This document shows, one piece after another, positions 10,740-53,351 of a DNA stretch of 64,000 bases (positions are counted from its first letter, which is position 1; each line of letters starts with the position of its first letter). Source of the stretch: Syncephalis fuscata. Lineage: Eukaryota > Zoopagomycota > Zoopagomycetes > Zoopagales > Piptocephalidaceae. The position numbers and the translations under genes were made by a program. Location: contig JAHLTZ010000011.1 in NCBI GenBank assembly GCA_025786725.1, positions 310,001 through 374,000 on the forward strand. The letters are read 5' to 3'. The notes beneath the pieces were generated by a model, which saw nothing but the letters and a program-made list of their open reading frames with translations, was not told where the DNA came from and ran no database searches.

Positions 10740-13700
10740 TTAAGATGAAGCCATAAGTTTATTACTATAAGCATGCACAGTTGAATAGTACAACTAGATG
10801 CAAACATGTTGGTAACATAATGATTCCATTGGTTAAAGACTGGATAAACCGGAGCATTGGCCAAAACTTGATATATAATAGACTGGACGGCGTATTTGTC
10901 AAATTCTTGATTTTCACCAATATATACCTAAATGTATTGGAATAGTGGTTCGATTGCACCACCAATGCTAATGTCTTGAAGCCATCGATTATACTGTATT
11001 TACAAATAAAGATATTATATGCCATAATTAATGTATAAGCCATCAATATACAATAATACTTACTGCCTATTAATATTAAGTTATTGATACACATAATACA
11101 TGGTATATAATTAATTTATAAGCTGTCAATATACAATGCTACTTACGACCTATTAACATTAAGTTATTGATGCACATGGTGCATAACATTTAATTAGTGA
11201 GTAATCAATTAATATACAATACAACTTACATACTATTAGTATTAAGTCATTGATATACATGGTGCATAGTATAAATTAGCGCATATTTAGTTAATGCATA
11301 ATACAACTTACTGTCTATTATATTAAGTTGTTGATGTATACGACATATGATACATAATTAGTGAGTAGTCATTTAATAAAAATACAACATACTAGCTATT
11401 ATATTAAGTTGTTAAAAACAAAATACATAGTATATAATTAGCAAGAAGTTAATCGACACATAATACAACTTACGTCCTATTATATTAAATTATTTATACA
11501 TAAAGTACATGGTATAGAATTAGTGCATATCTAGTTAATACATAATGCTACTTACCGCCTATTAATATTGATTTGTTGATGCACACAATAAATAGCATGT
11601 GATTAGTGCATATTTAATTAACATACGATAAAACTTACAATCTATTAATATTAAATAGTTGGTATCATCAGCAAATAGCATAGTCAATGTATAGTCAGTT
11701 AATATATACTCTCACTTACTATCTATTAATAGTAAATAATTAGTATAATTAGTAAATAACAGGCAATGTATATTCAGTTAATACACAGTATCACTTACTG
11801 ACTATAAATATCAAACAATTGGTATAATCAGTAAATAGCACAGTTAATGTATAGTTAGTTAATGTATAATATTACTTACAGCCTATTAATATTAAACAAT
11901 TGATATAATCAGTAAATAGCATAGTTAATGTATAGTCAGTCAATATATACTTTCACTTACAAACTATTAATGTTAAACAATTGGTACAGTTAGTAAGTAG
12001 CATGATTAATGTATATTCATTTAATATACAATACTACTTACTAGCTATTAATATTAAATAATCAATACAATCATTAAATAACAGTTAATATATATTCGAT
12101 TAATATACAATACAACTTACAATCTATTAATATTAAATAATTGGTATCATCAGTAAATAGCATAGTTAATGTATAGTTAGTTAATATATAATGTCACTTA
12201 CAGGCTATTAATATTAAACAATTGATGCAGTTAGTAAGTAGCAGCTAATATATATATATAGTCAATTAATATACAATATCACTTACCGACTATTAATATT
12301 AAACAATTGATACAATCAATAAGTAGCATAGTTAATGTATAGTTAGTTAATGTACAATATCACTTACAATCTATTAATAGTAAATAATTGGTACAATCAG
12401 TCATTATTATAATTAGTGTATAGTCAGCTAATGTACAATATCACTTACGTTCTATTAATATTAAATAATTGGTACAATCAGTAAATAGCATGGATAATGT
12501 ATAGTCAATTAATATACAACATTACTTACGTTCTATTAATATTAAATAATTGGTACAATCAGTAAATAGCATGGCTAATTTAGTCAATTAATATACAATT
12601 TCACTTACCCTCTATTGATATTAAATAGTCGGCGCAATTAGTAAATGGCATGATTAATGTATAGTTGGTTAATATACAATATTACTTACTCTCTATTAAT
12701 ATTAAACAACCGGTACCAGCAATAAATAACATGTGATTAGTGAGTAATTAATTAATATGCAATACAACTTACGACCTATTAATATTAAGTTGTTGATGCA
12801 CATAATTCACAATATGTAATTAGCTAATAGTCAATTAATGTACAGTATAGCTTACATTCTATTAGTATTGTTATTAATATAGATGGTGCATGGATATAAT
12901 TAGTGAGTAATTAGTTAATATACATACAACTTACTAGCTTTATATTAAATAGTTGATGCACACAGTACACGGTATATAATTAATACATAGTCAATTAATA
13001 TACAATACAACTTACCAACTATTCCATTAAGTTATTGATACACATAGTGCATGATACATAATTAATTTATAAGCCAGCAACATCAAATACCACTTACTGC
13101 CTATTAGTATTAAGTTAATGATATACACAAGCATAATATATATTAGCTAATGCCCAATTATTATACAATATAACTTACATGCTATTAGTATTAAGTTATT
13201 GATATACACAACGCATGGTATAAAATTAGCGCATAGTCAGTTAATATATAATACGACTTACCAGCTATTAATATTAAATTGTTGATATACACAATACATG
13301 GTATATAATTAATTTATAAGTCATTAATATAAAATATCACTTACCGCCTATATAATATTAAGTCATTGATACACACAGTACACGGTATATGATTAATGCA
13401 TAGTCAATTAATATACAATATAACTTACAATCCGCTAATATTAAGTTATTGATGAATACAGTACACGACAAATAATTAGTATGCGTTCTATTGACATGCA
13501 ATACGACTTACGAGCTATTAATATTAAACAATCGATACAATTAGTAAATAGCATAATTAATGTATATTCAACTAATATATATTATCACTTACTGACTATT
13601 AATATTAAATAATTGATACCAGCAGTAAATAGCATAGTTAATGTATAGTCAATTAATATACAATACAACTTACCATCTATTATAATTATGATTTAGAAAT

Positions 13701-13844
13701 ACTGTTAGTAAACAAAATGTTATGACATATTTATTAATATTGCAACATACCACGACGAACTAAGGCTGGCTTAGCATCCACAATGGTTGTAGCGGCCACA
13801 AGCGCGACAACAATGGTGCAAACGGCAGCAATGGAAAGCTTCAT
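10740..13844 (-). CDS. Secreted Cys-rich protein assembled from 33 microexons (one codon-sized slot per intron)
   Basis: Exon 1 (13751-13844, 94 nt) encodes a signal peptide beginning MKLSIAAVCTIVVALVAA and a short pro-segment ending in Arg-Arg, a possible Kex2 site. It ends in phase 1 at a GTATGT donor. Then come 33 microexons, 13674-13676 down to 11064-11066. All are 3 nt except exon 13429-13434 (6 nt). Each is bounded by AG (31 TAG or similar, one AAG at 12938) and GTAAG (one GTATG at 11392). Spliced in the phase set by exon 1 they give 34 codons with no stop and cysteines spaced C-x2-C-x3-C-x10-C-x3-C-x4-C. The terminal exon lies between 10993 and 10740. Its frame is conserved in a second copy at 53.2-53.35 kb, but the exact acceptor is unresolved. 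The nearest CAG (10994-10996) would give Ile then stop; an AAG at 10906-10908 would join the conserved frame. One base seems missing near 10789 before the shared stop at 10740. A secreted effector-like role is inference only. Confidence 0.75.
11064..13676 (-). repeat. Tandem array of ~81-bp units: intron plus 3-nt slot
   Basis: There are 33 slots, spaced 79-85 bp. On the minus strand units run GTAAGTTGTATTG ... TTTAATATTAATAG and then the slot. The intron part is conserved between units, while the 3-nt slots take about 25 different values. Intron lengths I measured are 76-82 nt. Two intron subfamilies alternate in blocks. One contains GTACCAATTATTTAATATTA (11642-12689 and 13515-13673). The other contains CAATAACTTAATATTA-like ends (11067-11638 and 12693-13511). 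Ordinary minisatellite drift would not confine variability to a 3-bp slot that always sits between AG and GTAAG. Confidence 0.9.
13677..13750 (-). other. First intron of the microexon gene
   Basis: A 74-nt intron with donor GTATGT and acceptor AATAG. Its sequence is unlike the array introns and resembles ordinary introns of this genome. It separates the signal-peptide exon from the first 3-nt slot (ATG) and fixes the reading phase as phase 1. Confidence 0.75.
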
Positions 13845-13979: not shown

Positions 13980-13987
13980 TATTTATA
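13980..13987 (-). promoter_or_regulatory. TATA box of the microexon gene
   Basis: TATAAATA on the minus strand, about 136 nt upstream of the ATG at 13844. It is followed by a C/T-rich leader (TACTCTCCACTTTACACC and similar), as in strongly expressed fungal secreted-protein genes. The wall-protein gene at 43505 has a similar TATA and leader. Confidence 0.5.
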
Positions 13988-17038: not shown

Positions 17039-19236
17039 TTACGTTGATAAAACAGATACTTCTGCAGATACTGCTGGTAATTCGCCCTGTATACGTTTGT
17101 TAGAGTGTGGACAGCGTAGAACCAGTTGCGTGGCGCCGCTTTCGCGTATAGTAACATCGAGGTAGACACGTTGGTTCTCATCGGTTGGTAATCCAAGATC
17201 GGCCAGTGTAAGTTGGGCAATAGCTCGGGTCTCGCCTGTGTTAGAGCGTTCATATAAGCGAACACGGCAATGTTCGGCACTTCGTTCGATCAAACGATGG
17301 CGTTTAACGGGTAGTGGTGTACCTGCTGGAATAATTGTTTCGAATCGATCGGCTGCATCAATAATACCAATTGCCTGTGAAAGATGTGGTACAGTGCTGG
17401 TTCCAGGTAGACACGCATAGCTGAACGGACAGCTGCATCAACTGTAGCGTTGACAGGTGTTGCTGTACCACTTGGTGCAGCACTAGGAGCAGCACTCGTC
17501 GCTGGCGTCTCTTCAGTACGTTTAGGCGTTGGTGCATTGGATGATTTAGGACCTTTACCGCCCTTGCCGCCCTTACCACTTTTACCTTTACCGCCCTTCT
17601 TGTTGCTACGTGACGGAGCAGGAGAGGCAGGTACCGGTGTAGAGGTGCCGCTTGCTTGTTGGCTTGTAGCCGGCGTTTCTTCTCTAGCTACAGCTGATTT
17701 ATCAGCTGGTAGAATCATTGATGCACATGCTGATGTATTGGCCAGTAGTGCGGCTTGAATAGCACAGCCAAGAGCGGCAGCTTCATCGGGTTCAACCTCG
17801 GTACGAATAATAACCTGGTCATTGGTTTTGTCTTGCTCTTCACTCGTAGCTGCAAACAGCTTGTTTAGCTGCGTGTGCAGTAATGGTAAGCGGGATGCAC
17901 CACCTAATAAAAGTATTTCATGCGGCTTTTGTGTGCCGTTGGCACCGTCCTTTGACCAGCCCACCAATGCAAGCACTTCGTTAACAATATCCATACAGCG
18001 TTGGACTAGTGGTGCAACTGCAGAATCGAATACAGCACGATGTACGTTAATATTAAGATCAATACCATCGGCAATTGACTCGACGGAGCAAGGTGCACTT
18101 GGACGCATACCAAGCGAACGGCGTGTTGCTTCACAGGCCAGTACAAGTTTGGCCACCGATCGTGGTCGATCGCTTAGATCAATGCGGTGACGACGTGTAA
18201 ATTCACGCTGTAAATGAGCAGCTAATGCACAATCAAGTGCACGTCCACCAAGACCAGTTTCGTTACGGGACACTAGGCGGGAGTAAAGACCGCCACGTAC
18301 ACCATAAGCATGAACACGTAGTGCAGTGCCGCCCAAATCTATTATTATACGATTGATGTCTGTAGATGCAGCCGTTGGCCGATTGACCGATGCATCAAAT
18401 GCTAATTGGGCTGCAGCAGGTTCACTAACAACTTGGTAGACAGCAAGACCGGCAAGCTGTGCCGCTTTACAAAGGCCGGCTCGCTGAGTTGGCGAAAAAT
18501 GAGCTGGATACGCAAGAACAGCACCGCTCACCGACTGACCAAGAGCAGATTCGGCACTTGAGCGCAATTGACGCAATACAATAGCCGTTACTTGTTCTGG
18601 AGAGTAATAGGTCGGTCCAGCTGCTTCTATTGGCTCACCATCATCATCCCATTGCTCTTCAGCAGGCACTTCAAATTTCAATTGGCCATCTTCTTCGGTT
18701 AGTGCAACTCGATTGCCATGGCCACGAAAAGCATCCACTGCCGGGTCTTCTATGCTATAATTATTTATATATTAGCACCACTATTCATGGGTGTAAATCA
18801 CACTGTTGACACCTACCTGGTACAGCCAAGAAGCTCATTAAAAGCAAGCGTGACACGATTTGGCTGGCGTACACTTAATTGTCTAGCCTGCACGCCAACC
18901 AACTAAATAAACATAAATGCAAAAATAAAAATAACATAACACAATATATAAGTGTCATTGCATTATCAATATATATTTGTCATTTACCTCCTCTGTACCA
19001 GAGAATGCCACATAGGCTGGCACCATGCGATCACCATCTTCATTGGCTACCAGCTGTGGCCGACCATCCTATTTGAACATAGTAAATATACTGTTCTATA
19101 GTTATTGTATATATAGATTGTATCTTACCTTATCAAGCACAGCGACTGAGGCGCGTAGCGTGCCCAAGTGAATACCAACGACATTAGTGCTTCCATCTAC
19201 GCCATTCGCGTTATTTAAAGTTGAAGTGTCAGCCAT
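17039..19236 (-). CDS. SSZ1: Ssz1/HSPA14-type Hsp70 of the ribosome-associated complex
   Basis: Exons are 19129-19236, 18988-19068, 18817-18902 and 18754-17039. The N-terminus VVGIHLGTLRASVAVLDKDG is an atypical Hsp70 phosphate loop. IIDLGGTALRVHAYGVRGG and EILLLGGASRLPLL mark the second lobe of the ATPase domain. A low-complexity Lys/Gly linker (about 17540-17640) separates it from a short substrate-binding-like domain (IGIIDAADRFETIIPAGTPL onward) that ends SVLST. The short C-terminal domain is typical of Ssz1, the Zuotin partner at the ribosome tunnel. A one-base frame change is needed around 17400-17430. A weak-donor intron is possible, but an assembly indel is simpler. Confidence 0.85.
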
Positions 19237-52339: not shown

Positions 52340-53351
52340 TGTTTTTTGCATGCTACTCGGTATGCATGCAGATATTGGGAACTGCACGAGTCAGTAAAAG
52401 CAACAACAAAAGATAACAGCATTGCTTTTACAGAGCTAATCAATTTTCCCATTCTCACCATATAGCCAAATTGCACAATAAAAATACAGGTTAATATACA
52501 CATATCTATCGCATATTTACTGAATCAAGTTGGGTGGGTCATTATTATTGCCGCACCATCCGCGTAAATGCTGTGCTATATAACGTGCATACCAATAAAC
52601 TAATATTAATAAAATGCGAGTGAGAATTTATATTAACTAGCTATAAACTAATTGCATCCCATATATTTTATGTATGAACAAATAAATGTAATATCAGTAA
52701 ATGACAGTTTATATGCAATAACTATACACTAATTACATGCTATGGTCTGCGGGTGTCAGCCACATAATACTAGTTGTTAAGTACTATTATACATTAATTA
52801 GTTATTTAATAATGGCGCCCATTTACTTTATATTAATAGCATAACATTAATAGAAAGTAAGCGACATTGTGTAATATTGATTATTCATTAATGAAATGCT
52901 ATTTAATTCATATATCAATAGCTTAATATTAACAGGATGTAAGTTGCATTGTAGTTAATTAGCTATGCGCTAATTACATGTTATGTACTGTGTCTATCAA
53001 CAACCTAATATTAATGGGTTGTAAGCTATATTTTAGATTATCAGTTTATGCATTAATTATATGCCATGTAATATATTTATTTATAAATATAAAATAGTCG
53101 GCGTTTTAAGACACTAGCATTATTGATAGCACAATTTAAGATTATTCCAGTACACTTTAGTATATATTCGGTGGAGGCAAGAACATTTGATAAATATGCC
53201 GTTCAGTCCATTCATATATCAAGTCATGGCTAATGCATCGGTTTATCCAGTGTTTAATCAATGGAATCATTATTTTATCAACAGGTTTGCATCTAGTTGT
53301 CTCTATTCAACTGTGCAAACTAGTAGTAATAAAATTATGCTTTCATTATAG
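52340..53351 (+). pseudogene. Decayed inverted copy of the microexon gene
   Basis: Runs in the same order as the minus-strand locus at 10.7-14.6 kb. First comes a 5'-flank piece (52340-52530; AAAATACAGG ... ATATCTATCGCATAT). A few array units follow with recognisable junctions: ATTAATAG-AAA-GTAAGC near 52858, ATTAACAG-GAT-GTAAGT near 52937 and AATGGGTTGTAAGC near 53020. Last is the terminal exon (about 53185-53351) ending at TAG. Exon 1 with the signal peptide and most units are missing, and several donors are mutated, so it is dead. It is valuable for showing which 3' frame was under selection. Confidence 0.75.

Follow-up and report, generated by a model that had tools for sequence, protein, structure and literature searches.

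We identified, on the minus strand of a 64-kb window of the Syncephalis fuscata genome (the whole stretch of DNA analysed here), a gene whose mature peptide is predicted to be borne on one-codon microexons. Judging from its sequence, it is very probably a functional, protein-coding member of a large family of small secreted, Cys-rich peptides, and it is one among dozens of array genes in this genome. The coordinates that we re-derived place its ATG at 13844 and the end of its stop codon at 10989. It comprises a 94-nt signal-peptide exon, 33 microexons (hereafter slots; all of 3 nt except a single one of 6 nt), 34 GT-AG introns of 70 to 82 nt and a terminal exon; the first-pass annotation had already described the signal-peptide exon and the 33 slots on this strand. 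The spliced model yields a 201-nt CDS and a 66-residue precursor, MKLS...KPALVRR followed by a Cys-rich peptide. Exon 1 ends in phase 1, so introns fall between the first and second bases of nearly every codon, a claim of the first-pass annotation that the slots bear out in their frame and their cysteine content. Its one-gene reading with one-codon exons also agrees with the genome-wide exon length, the intronless paralogs and the U1 compensation described below.

A TATA-like box (TATAAATA; 13980-13987) precedes exon 1 (13751-13844), which consists of MKLSIAAVCTIVVALVAATTIVDAKPALVRR plus 1 nt and encodes a signal peptide, judged by eye, and a dibasic site. T[TA]TAAATA is found upstream of 19 of the 25 array models and 7 of the 11 intronless loci discussed below. 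Intron 1 (GTATGT...TATAATAG, 74 nt) occupies 13677-13750. The first three microexons are ATG (13674-13676), TCA (13593-13595) and CTC (13512-13514), and the fourth is the 6-nt CGGATT (13429-13434), which supplies the codons immediately preceding the first Cys. Other array genes also have 6-nt exons at about this position. Microexons 5 to 11 are GCG (13345-13347), CTG (13262-13264), CAT (13179-13181), GCA (13098-13100), TTG (13016-13018), CTA (12935-12937; weak acceptor, ATATAAAG) and AAT (12856-12858). They are followed by GTC (12773-12775), AGA (12690-12692), AGG (12609-12611), AAC (12530-12532), AAC (12449-12451), ATT (12368-12370), TCG (12287-12289), CCT (12202-12204), ATT (12121-12123), CTA (12042-12044) and TTT (11961-11963) as microexons 12 to 22. 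Microexons 23 to 33 are GCT (11880-11882), TCA (11799-11801), ATA (11720-11722), ATT (11639-11641), GCG (11556-11558), GAC (11474-11476), CTA (11393-11395), ACA (11312-11314), TAT (11230-11232), GTC (11147-11149) and GCA (11064-11066). After the last intron (GTAAGT...AAATACAG, 70 nt; 10994-11063), the terminal exon (10740-10993) opens at 10993 as AAATACAG|TA TAA, with 2 nt, the stop codon at 10991-10989 and a 3'UTR that contains AATAAA at 10763-10758 and ends at a putative 3' end. The terminal exon had initially been placed at 10745-10900, an interval that proves to be 3'UTR.

The donor GTAAGT follows 31 of the 33 slots, the exceptions being GTAAGC after slot 11 and GTATGT after slot 29. The commonest acceptor, ATTAATAG, precedes 18/33 slots, the remainder being other AG-ending variants. 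All 25 copies of TAATAGNNNGTAAGT in the window lie within the array (dinucleotide-shuffle mean 0.03). The introns, first described as near-identical, are instead similar: across 14 arrays, mean pairwise identity is 0.72-0.77 within arrays and 0.73 between them, against 0.67 in interior-shuffled controls. The window also holds a degenerate 3' array remnant at 52.5-53.1 kb, and a scan of the whole window at Rfam gathering thresholds gave no match.

The one-codon spacing extends throughout the genome. The pattern AATATTAATAG-N3-GTAAGT has 1,073 genome matches (556 + 517) and none in the reversed control (0 + 0), while the same motif pair occurs 6 times with gaps of 0-2 nt and 3 times with gaps of 4-30 nt. 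By extrapolation, the genome would contain a few thousand one-codon exons. A chain finder with no built-in bias to exon length or frame returned 22 chains of at least eight exons in 21 stretches, in which 313/316 internal exons measure 3 nt; the reversed stretches gave no chain of this length and a single chain of two.

Strict splice-site matrices broke the arrays apart, and we therefore adopted softer matrices anchored at exon 1. In the anchored models, a high penalty led to weak slots being skipped, with introns of about 160 nt; the final settings recover most of these slots, and lowering the penalty from 4 to 0 shifts the total exon number merely from 568 to 574. Since the matrices were trained on these same arrays, the motif match is circular, a limitation that does not extend to exon length or frame. 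The window and 30 family stretches provided 25 exon-1-anchored models with at least four slots. Stretches L001-L008 were omitted (they overlap L009), L014, L024, L027, L030 and L038 have no model because no exon 1 was matched inside the stretch, and in L023 exon 1 was matched, yet no chain formed. Anchored chains at the window ATG at 17438 and in the tails of L011 and L022 were nonsense, with no true terminal exon within reach, and were excluded. Exon length in the final models is 3 nt in 536/572 cases, 6 nt in 19, 15 nt in two, and 9 nt and 27 nt in one each; the other 13 lengths are not divisible by three, and some of these are evident modelling errors. In 24/25 models, exon 1 ends in phase 1.

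The reading frame was tested on 365 slots from 17 of the 25 genes. Near-identical copies (L009, L011, L033) were dropped, as were L013, L026, L028, L031 and L035, which have fewer than six slots before the first break (a slot that exceeds 9 nt or whose length is not divisible by three, after which later slots were discarded). Read in phase 1, the slots contain one stop in 362 codons, compared with 23.2 +/- 3.5 under slot permutation, and 65 cysteines, compared with 30.9 +/- 3.9; neither value was reached in any of 2000 permutations (0/2000). The sole stop is the terminator of L019 itself, at the end of its array. Phase 0 gives 4 stops and 1 Cys, and phase 2 gives 26 stops and 14 Cys. These tests establish the open frame at the level of sequence. 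Frame-breaking slots occur in some arrays (4 nt in L022, 2 nt in L035), and some copies could therefore be non-functional.

Intronless paralogs coexist with the arrays. Among 150 scored matches to protein P0121, 40 remain open to residue 42 or beyond and 105 stop by residue 38. In the 11 intronless loci that we fetched, exon 1 and the mature peptide lie within a single ORF. Their exon-1 sequence is the same as that of the array genes, and the stop and start of the 3'UTR are also alike: TAATCRATGG is exact at 5/11 stops, has one or two differences at 5/11 and four at 1/11. With a mature peptide between the same flanks in these paralogs, the array therefore stands where they have their mature coding sequence. 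Base composition per codon position is similar between array slots and intronless ORFs. The peptides of array gene L021 (CKCQDEDGNCTSC) and intronless L048 (CKCRDDDGYCTSC) agree over a 13-residue core, with 0/2000 slot permutations scoring as high, and the two genes are sisters in the promoter and exon 1 tree (support 0.999). That tree covers 35 genes and shows partial clustering by architecture, with 5 changes against a mean of 8.8 and a minimum of 4 under shuffled labels; L021/L048 is the only mixed pair with strong support.

A profile search matched 12 proteins, all from S. fuscata, and we recognised no spliced array product among them. Tracing covered four of them with Cys-rich tails, P0121, P0125, P0126 and P0131, and led to intronless loci; the tails of several others resemble read-through by eye. 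In a profile test, 7/13 array peptides were not clearly nearer the intronless profile than their own slot permutations; L021, at least, falls in another subfamily. A comparison with alpha-hairpinins (CxxxC...CxxxC) gave six profile matches, all insignificant: a scorpion neurotoxin chain was best (E 1.6), followed by four vicilin-type chains and BWI-2c (E 2.4-7.3). Ten conceptual peptides were compared with Pfam under an E limit of 1: Cys_box was matched by one of them (E 0.0008) and Importin_rep_4 by another (0.16), and the peptide of the window gene had no match. The AlphaFold model of the intronless P0121 is poor (pLDDT 60; 3 sequences).

The array introns have the features of U2-type GT-AG introns: a U1-complementary donor, an AG acceptor and a branch-like motif. 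Of 477 array introns (median 78 nt), 364 have GTAAGT as donor and the others mostly close variants, including GCAAGT in 11. The last YTRAY lies 1 nt before the AG in 316 introns, and 28 have none. The U1 of S. fuscata starts ATACTTACC and its U2 contains GTAGTA. Exon base -1 is G at 38/88 imperfect donors versus 77/388 perfect GTAAGT donors (odds ratio 3.1, p 1.3e-5), and we take this compensation as a sign of selection by U1; exon base -2 shows none (p 0.77). CTAACAG shows no enrichment across the window (6 versus 7.1 expected), which gives no support for fused branch/acceptor sites as a general feature of the species.

We infer the following course of expression. Transcription would cross the entire unit of about 3.2 kb, and a U2-type spliceosome would recognise the introns singly, by intron definition, each about 78 nt long. 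U1 would pair with the near-perfect GTAAGT, which would leave the exon bases free for coding, and the branch site TATTAAT, fused to the 3' AG, would pair with U2. Because a 3-nt exon could hardly hold splicing complexes on both sides together, adjacent introns would be excised in succession; exon definition is unlikely to act on exons of this size, and sequential, intron-defined (recursive-like) splicing is reasonably expected to be required. The precursor would then be cut by signal peptidase and at the dibasic RR, releasing a 35-residue peptide with the pattern C-x2-C-x3-C-x(n)-C-x3-C-x4-C. Syncephalis is a mycoparasitic genus, its members being parasites of other fungi, and the role of the peptide probably lies in interactions with host fungi or competitors.

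As to origin, the arrays may be old and the intronless copies derived from them through cDNA. It is quite possible, as a reading that we hold tentatively, that the introns serve as homologous spacers around every codon: recombination between 81-bp units would add, remove or swap single residues in frame and so diversify the secreted peptides one codon at a time, and occasional collapse through cDNA would yield the intronless genes. Introns could instead have been inserted one by one into a contiguous ORF, by an introner-like burst or reverse splicing, which we regard as rather unlikely. Similar introns mostly flank unlike codons, as insertion would predict (the slot is shared in 12/102 within-array pairs of identity at least 0.90, and in 195/5,689 of all pairs), and the L021 core matches the contiguous L048. 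Independent insertions, however, predict mixed phases and exon sizes, and nearly all slots are 3 nt long; between the close copies L009/L010 and L011/L012, moreover, whole intron-plus-codon units have been gained or lost. Introners and introner-like elements are many similar introns per genome, dispersed in unrelated genes in any phase. The S. fuscata introns are likewise numerous and similar within a single genome, but they stand in tandem in one family, nearly all in one phase and one codon apart, with a gap of 3 nt in 1,073 matches versus 9 for all other lengths of 0-30 nt.

Neighbouring slots show no significant excess of identical pairs (19/348; null 13.5 +/- 3.4, matched in 156/2000 shuffles), so recent simple unit duplication is unlikely to be the sole source. 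Between L017 and L025, slots change faster than introns (14/57 versus 87/1479); where both flanks are at least 0.94 identical, the figures are 4/24 and 11/625. Faster slot change is absent in L009/L010 and L011/L012, and for this reason we claim no family-wide positive selection.

Splicing could also join exon 1 directly to 10993, with the array excised as one long intron and a short signal-peptide product as the outcome; one-codon splicing would then be at most a minor or regulated event. An outer donor and acceptor are present, and exon skipping would be an expected error for 3-nt exons. We nevertheless consider this improbable: slot frame and cysteines are maintained over 17 genes, which requires that the slots be translated often enough for selection to act. 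A mixture of isoforms still fits the data, since skipping any 3-nt slots preserves the frame. A decayed or non-coding tandem repeat, such as a minisatellite with splice-like motifs and slots devoid of information, is more improbable again. Its units would be tandem and similar, as they are here, and the frame-breaking slots and the degenerate remnant in the window are in keeping with decay; against it, the phase-1 frame is open and Cys-rich well beyond slot permutations, slot length is constant at 3 throughout the genome, L021 shares its core with an intronless sister, and base composition by codon position is like that of the intronless genes. Programmed DNA excision, with the intronless copies as its products, could account for the two forms in one assembly but is extremely improbable, given GT...AG ends with branch-like motifs, a -1 G that compensates weak donors as U1 would need, and mature peptides at the 11 intronless loci that are not those encoded by the array models, so that these loci are genes in their own right rather than excised copies.

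A literature search found no gene architecture like these one-codon exon arrays. The micro-exon genes (MEGs) of Schistosoma mansoni are described as secreted-protein families that, like the arrays, are spread over many short exons, with lengths mostly divisible by three, and are hard to annotate automatically; their exons are mostly 15 bp (range given as 6-81 in the text and 3-81 in the abstract), as the first-pass annotation held in calling them longer, and their introns 0.1-5 kb (PMC10526429). In S. fuscata, nearly all internal exons are 3 nt, the introns measure about 78 nt and resemble one another, and the arrays have intronless paralogs beside them; the likeness is one of architecture, and secretion of the array products was judged by eye. 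Aphid bicycle genes also have many unusually small internal exons, nearly all beginning at codon position 2, with about 17 exons on average and CYC motifs; they are fast-evolving putative effectors of insects, and their likeness to this fungal family is again architectural (PMC9168663). Isolated exons of 3 bp in Drosophila homothorax (PMC7392893) and of 1 nt in Arabidopsis APC11, for which the authors propose intron definition and recursive splicing (PMC4674806), show that exons as small as 1-3 nt can be taken up by a spliceosome, but each is a lone tiny exon, compared with 33 consecutive ones in the window gene. The proposal that this is an undescribed system therefore stands for a whole gene family built uniformly on one-codon exons in series, and not for exons of 3 nt or 1 nt as such; the array genes are an extreme variant of the microexon gene.

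If the genes are spliced as predicted, intron density would be near its ceiling, at about one per codon of the mature region in dozens of genes, and more than 30 exons of 3 nt would be joined in order with hardly anything in the exons to guide splicing, save a -1 G here and there. The arrays would offer a natural system for testing intron definition and sequential splicing, with their intronless sisters as matched controls. Because 3-nt exons escape gene finders, standard annotation would seem to miss much of the secreted peptide repertoire of S. fuscata, and similar genes may hide elsewhere. The gain and loss of whole units suggests a new route of peptide evolution, through the gain or loss of single amino acids.

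We re-derived the coordinates of the array gene on the minus strand of the window and obtained the same count of microexons, hereafter slots, as the first-pass annotation. Exon 1 (ATG at 13844; 94 nt) codes for MKLSIAAVCTIVVALVAATTIVDAKPALVRR plus one base and is followed by 33 slots, all of 3 nt but for a single 6-nt one, the last being GCA at 11066-11064. The acceptor before the slots is ATTAATAG in 18 of the 33 cases, with AG-ending variants elsewhere, and the donor after them is GTAAGT in 31/33. The introns measure 74-82 nt, except for the last one (70 nt), which follows the GCA slot and ends in AAATACAG. The terminal exon, earlier placed at 10745-10900, in fact starts at 10993 with TA TAA (stop codon 10991-10989), and the region originally assigned to it is 3'UTR. 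The joined CDS of 201 nt translates to MKLSIAAVCTIVVALVAATTIVDAKPALVRR-DVTPDCAACIAKCQKEQHFAYSICFNNCGPNICRI, and at the sequence level this gene model is close to certain. A 6-nt exon directly ahead of the first cysteine (13429-13434 in the window) recurs in many arrays, often with the acceptor AATATTAG, which 15/477 array introns carry; it is perhaps an old intron loss common to the family.

The array is part of a larger set in the Syncephalis fuscata genome. All 25 copies of TAATAGNNNGTAAGT in the window lie within the array (expected 0.03). The pattern AATATTAATAG-N3-GTAAGT has 1,073 matches genome-wide and its reversed form none, while the same motif pair occurs six times with 0-2 bases between and three times with 4-30. 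Since only 170 of the 459 3-nt slots in our gene models satisfy this strict motif, one-codon exons may number a few thousand across the genome, an extrapolation that includes near-duplicate contigs. A hand count among the matches listed gave at least about 80 separate genomic places, from which 30 stretches were fetched. The window also contains, at 52564-53100 on the plus strand, a degenerate 3' remnant of a second array of the same family, with two clear slots (AAA, 52854-52856; GAT, 52936-52938) and a third behind a damaged acceptor before 53021, followed by sequence resembling the family terminal exon.

We applied a chain finder that scored splice sites alone to the window and 20 stretches. 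It returned 22 chains of at least eight exons, in which 313/316 internal exons were of 3 nt; reversed sequences gave no such chain and a single chain of two. Anchoring on exon 1 yielded 25 models, with 536 of 572 exons of 3 nt. The proposal that the slots are read jointly in phase 1, as set by exon 1, was borne out in the 17 of these models kept for the test (365 slots, 362 codons), which together showed one stop, the terminator at the end of L019, and 65 cysteines. Permuting slots within genes gave 23.2 +/- 3.5 stops and 30.9 +/- 3.9 cysteines, and 0/2000 permutations attained either observed value. The same slots gave four stops and one cysteine in phase 0, and 26 stops and 14 cysteines in phase 2. 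Frame-breaking slots were seen in two otherwise regular arrays (L022, 4-nt GCAA at C13:417014; L035, 2-nt TG at C124:11424), and could be pseudogenes, assembly errors or something else.

Several array products have the pattern C-x2-C-x3-C-x(n)-C-x3-C, and other arrays encode very different short peptides, such as ...LVRR-APWGGFRWF from L019. The products of L019 (APWGGFRWF) and L016 (AGAEPKPCWTVWTGWYPCPS) differ from the six-cysteine members in that the part beyond the dibasic site is very short or tryptophan-rich; they are small enough to be signalling peptides. A profile built from ten conceptual peptides retrieved 12 proteins, every one from S. fuscata. Six of these public models (P0122, P0123, P0124, P0128, P0130 and P0132) keep the family exon 1, followed by tails without the cysteine pattern. 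Because these tails resemble, by eye, intron or wrong-frame sequence, the annotation may have missed microexons there.

The family also includes intronless genes. A genome search with P0121, an annotated protein traced to an intronless locus, gave 313 candidates, of which 150 were scored: 40 were open to at least residue 42, 105 ended at or before residue 38 and five contained stops. In 75 of the 105 short matches the open frame spans just 38-44 residues, as expected where exon 1 runs into a stop in intron 1. All 11 fetched full-length intronless loci have a single uninterrupted ORF opening with exon-1 sequence. In array genes TAATCRATGG makes up the stop codon and the beginning of the 3'UTR; it comes after the intronless ORFs unchanged in 5/11, with one or two differences in 5/11 and with four in 1/11. 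T[TA]TAAATA lies within 260 bases upstream in 7/11 intronless loci and 19/25 array models; those seven share, by eye, a longer promoter stretch, and the upstream sequences of L039, L041 and L048 differ. This common exon 1, stop/3'UTR start and upstream sequence place the array at the position of the mature peptide in these intronless genes. At L039 (C212), P0125 and P0126 are intronless copies in tandem, separated by about 1.2 kb, and each is followed by an unrelated ORF (MQLYIGVAF...).

The array gene L021 and the intronless L048 are sisters on a promoter and exon 1 tree (support 0.999). Their peptides agree over CKCxDxDGxCTSC, and 0/2000 slot permutations score as high; they end in RLIM* and LLVI*, respectively, the L021 ending requiring a hand-chosen weaker donor. 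We also scored 13 array genes against a profile of seven intronless mature peptides, with 500 slot permutations each. The window peptide scored above 497/500 slot permutations and 495/500 residue shuffles, L029, L034, L036 and L037 above 500/500 slot permutations, and L010 above 493. Seven of the 13 did not clearly exceed the slot permutations: permutations scoring as well as the real peptide numbered 16 for L012, 22 for L022, 90 for L018, 187 for L017, 298 for L025 and 362 for L021, and L016 had no score. Codon-position composition is similar in both architectures (for example, T at position 2, 0.11 and 0.12), position 3 showing larger differences (A, 0.19 and 0.28).

S. fuscata U1 starts ATACTTACC and U2 has GTAGTA; 364/477 array introns start with GTAAGT, and in 316/477 a final branch-like YTRAY lies one base ahead of the AG, a geometry also found in Yarrowia. 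The last exon base is G at 38/88 imperfect donors versus 77/388 perfect ones (odds ratio 3.1, p 1.3e-5), with no compensation at exon position -2 (p 0.77). This trade-off is not built in, because the chain finder ignores exon bases, and is the trace expected of selection for pairing with U1. Splicing of the window gene as modelled is very probable, and would proceed by intron definition, with adjoining introns excised in succession. A similar mechanism is favoured by the authors describing a 1-nt Arabidopsis exon (PMC4674806).

Between close copies of array genes, entire units (an intron with its codon) are present or absent, one between L011 and L012 and at least five inside the array between L009 and L010, further differences at the array ends of the latter pair being possible model errors. 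Closely similar array genes with whole-unit differences (L009/L010, L011/L012/L033, L017/L025), some on small contigs, are perhaps in part haplotype copies in the assembly. In L010 a unit pair is present twice: the introns are 0.99-1.00 identical, and both copies carry ATT and GCA, which jointly make a Cys codon. Intron identity is 0.765 for adjacent units (lag 1), 0.722 for units at least 16 apart and 0.730 between arrays. These whole-unit differences, the L010 repeat and the somewhat greater likeness of neighbouring introns suggest that single codons are gained and lost through recombination between introns. However, the same codon occurs in just 12/102 pairs with intron identity of at least 0.90, though above the 195/5,689 for all pairs, and identical slots do not stand next to each other significantly more often than in shuffles (365 slots, 17 genes), which argues against a simple version of recombination. 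Conversion confined to introns together with codon selection, or diversifying codon selection, could explain this pattern. As to the origin of the two architectures, cDNA-mediated loss would be expected to yield intronless copies with promoter and UTR retained, as observed; alternatively, the arrays may stem from intron insertion into an old ORF.

S. fuscata belongs to the Zoopagales, and a uridine phosphorylase encoded in the window shares 76% identity with its Syncephalis pseudoplumigaleata counterpart. The genus is termed mycoparasitic in PMC6784888, in whose main text the words intron and exon are absent. Among titles and abstracts on one-codon exon arrays, fungal microexons and Syncephalis genomes, mainly from the open-access literature, we found no counterpart. 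Published accounts describe schistosome micro-exon genes as having mostly 15-bp exons and long introns (PMC10526429), and bicycle genes as having many small exons that begin at codon position 2 (PMC9168663), as the S. fuscata slots do. Lone exons of 3 nt (PMC7392893) and 1 nt (PMC4674806) are on record, and a 2024 paper presented functional microexons as new to filamentous fungi (PMC11121469). We regard the S. fuscata arrays as an extreme, new form of microexon genes.
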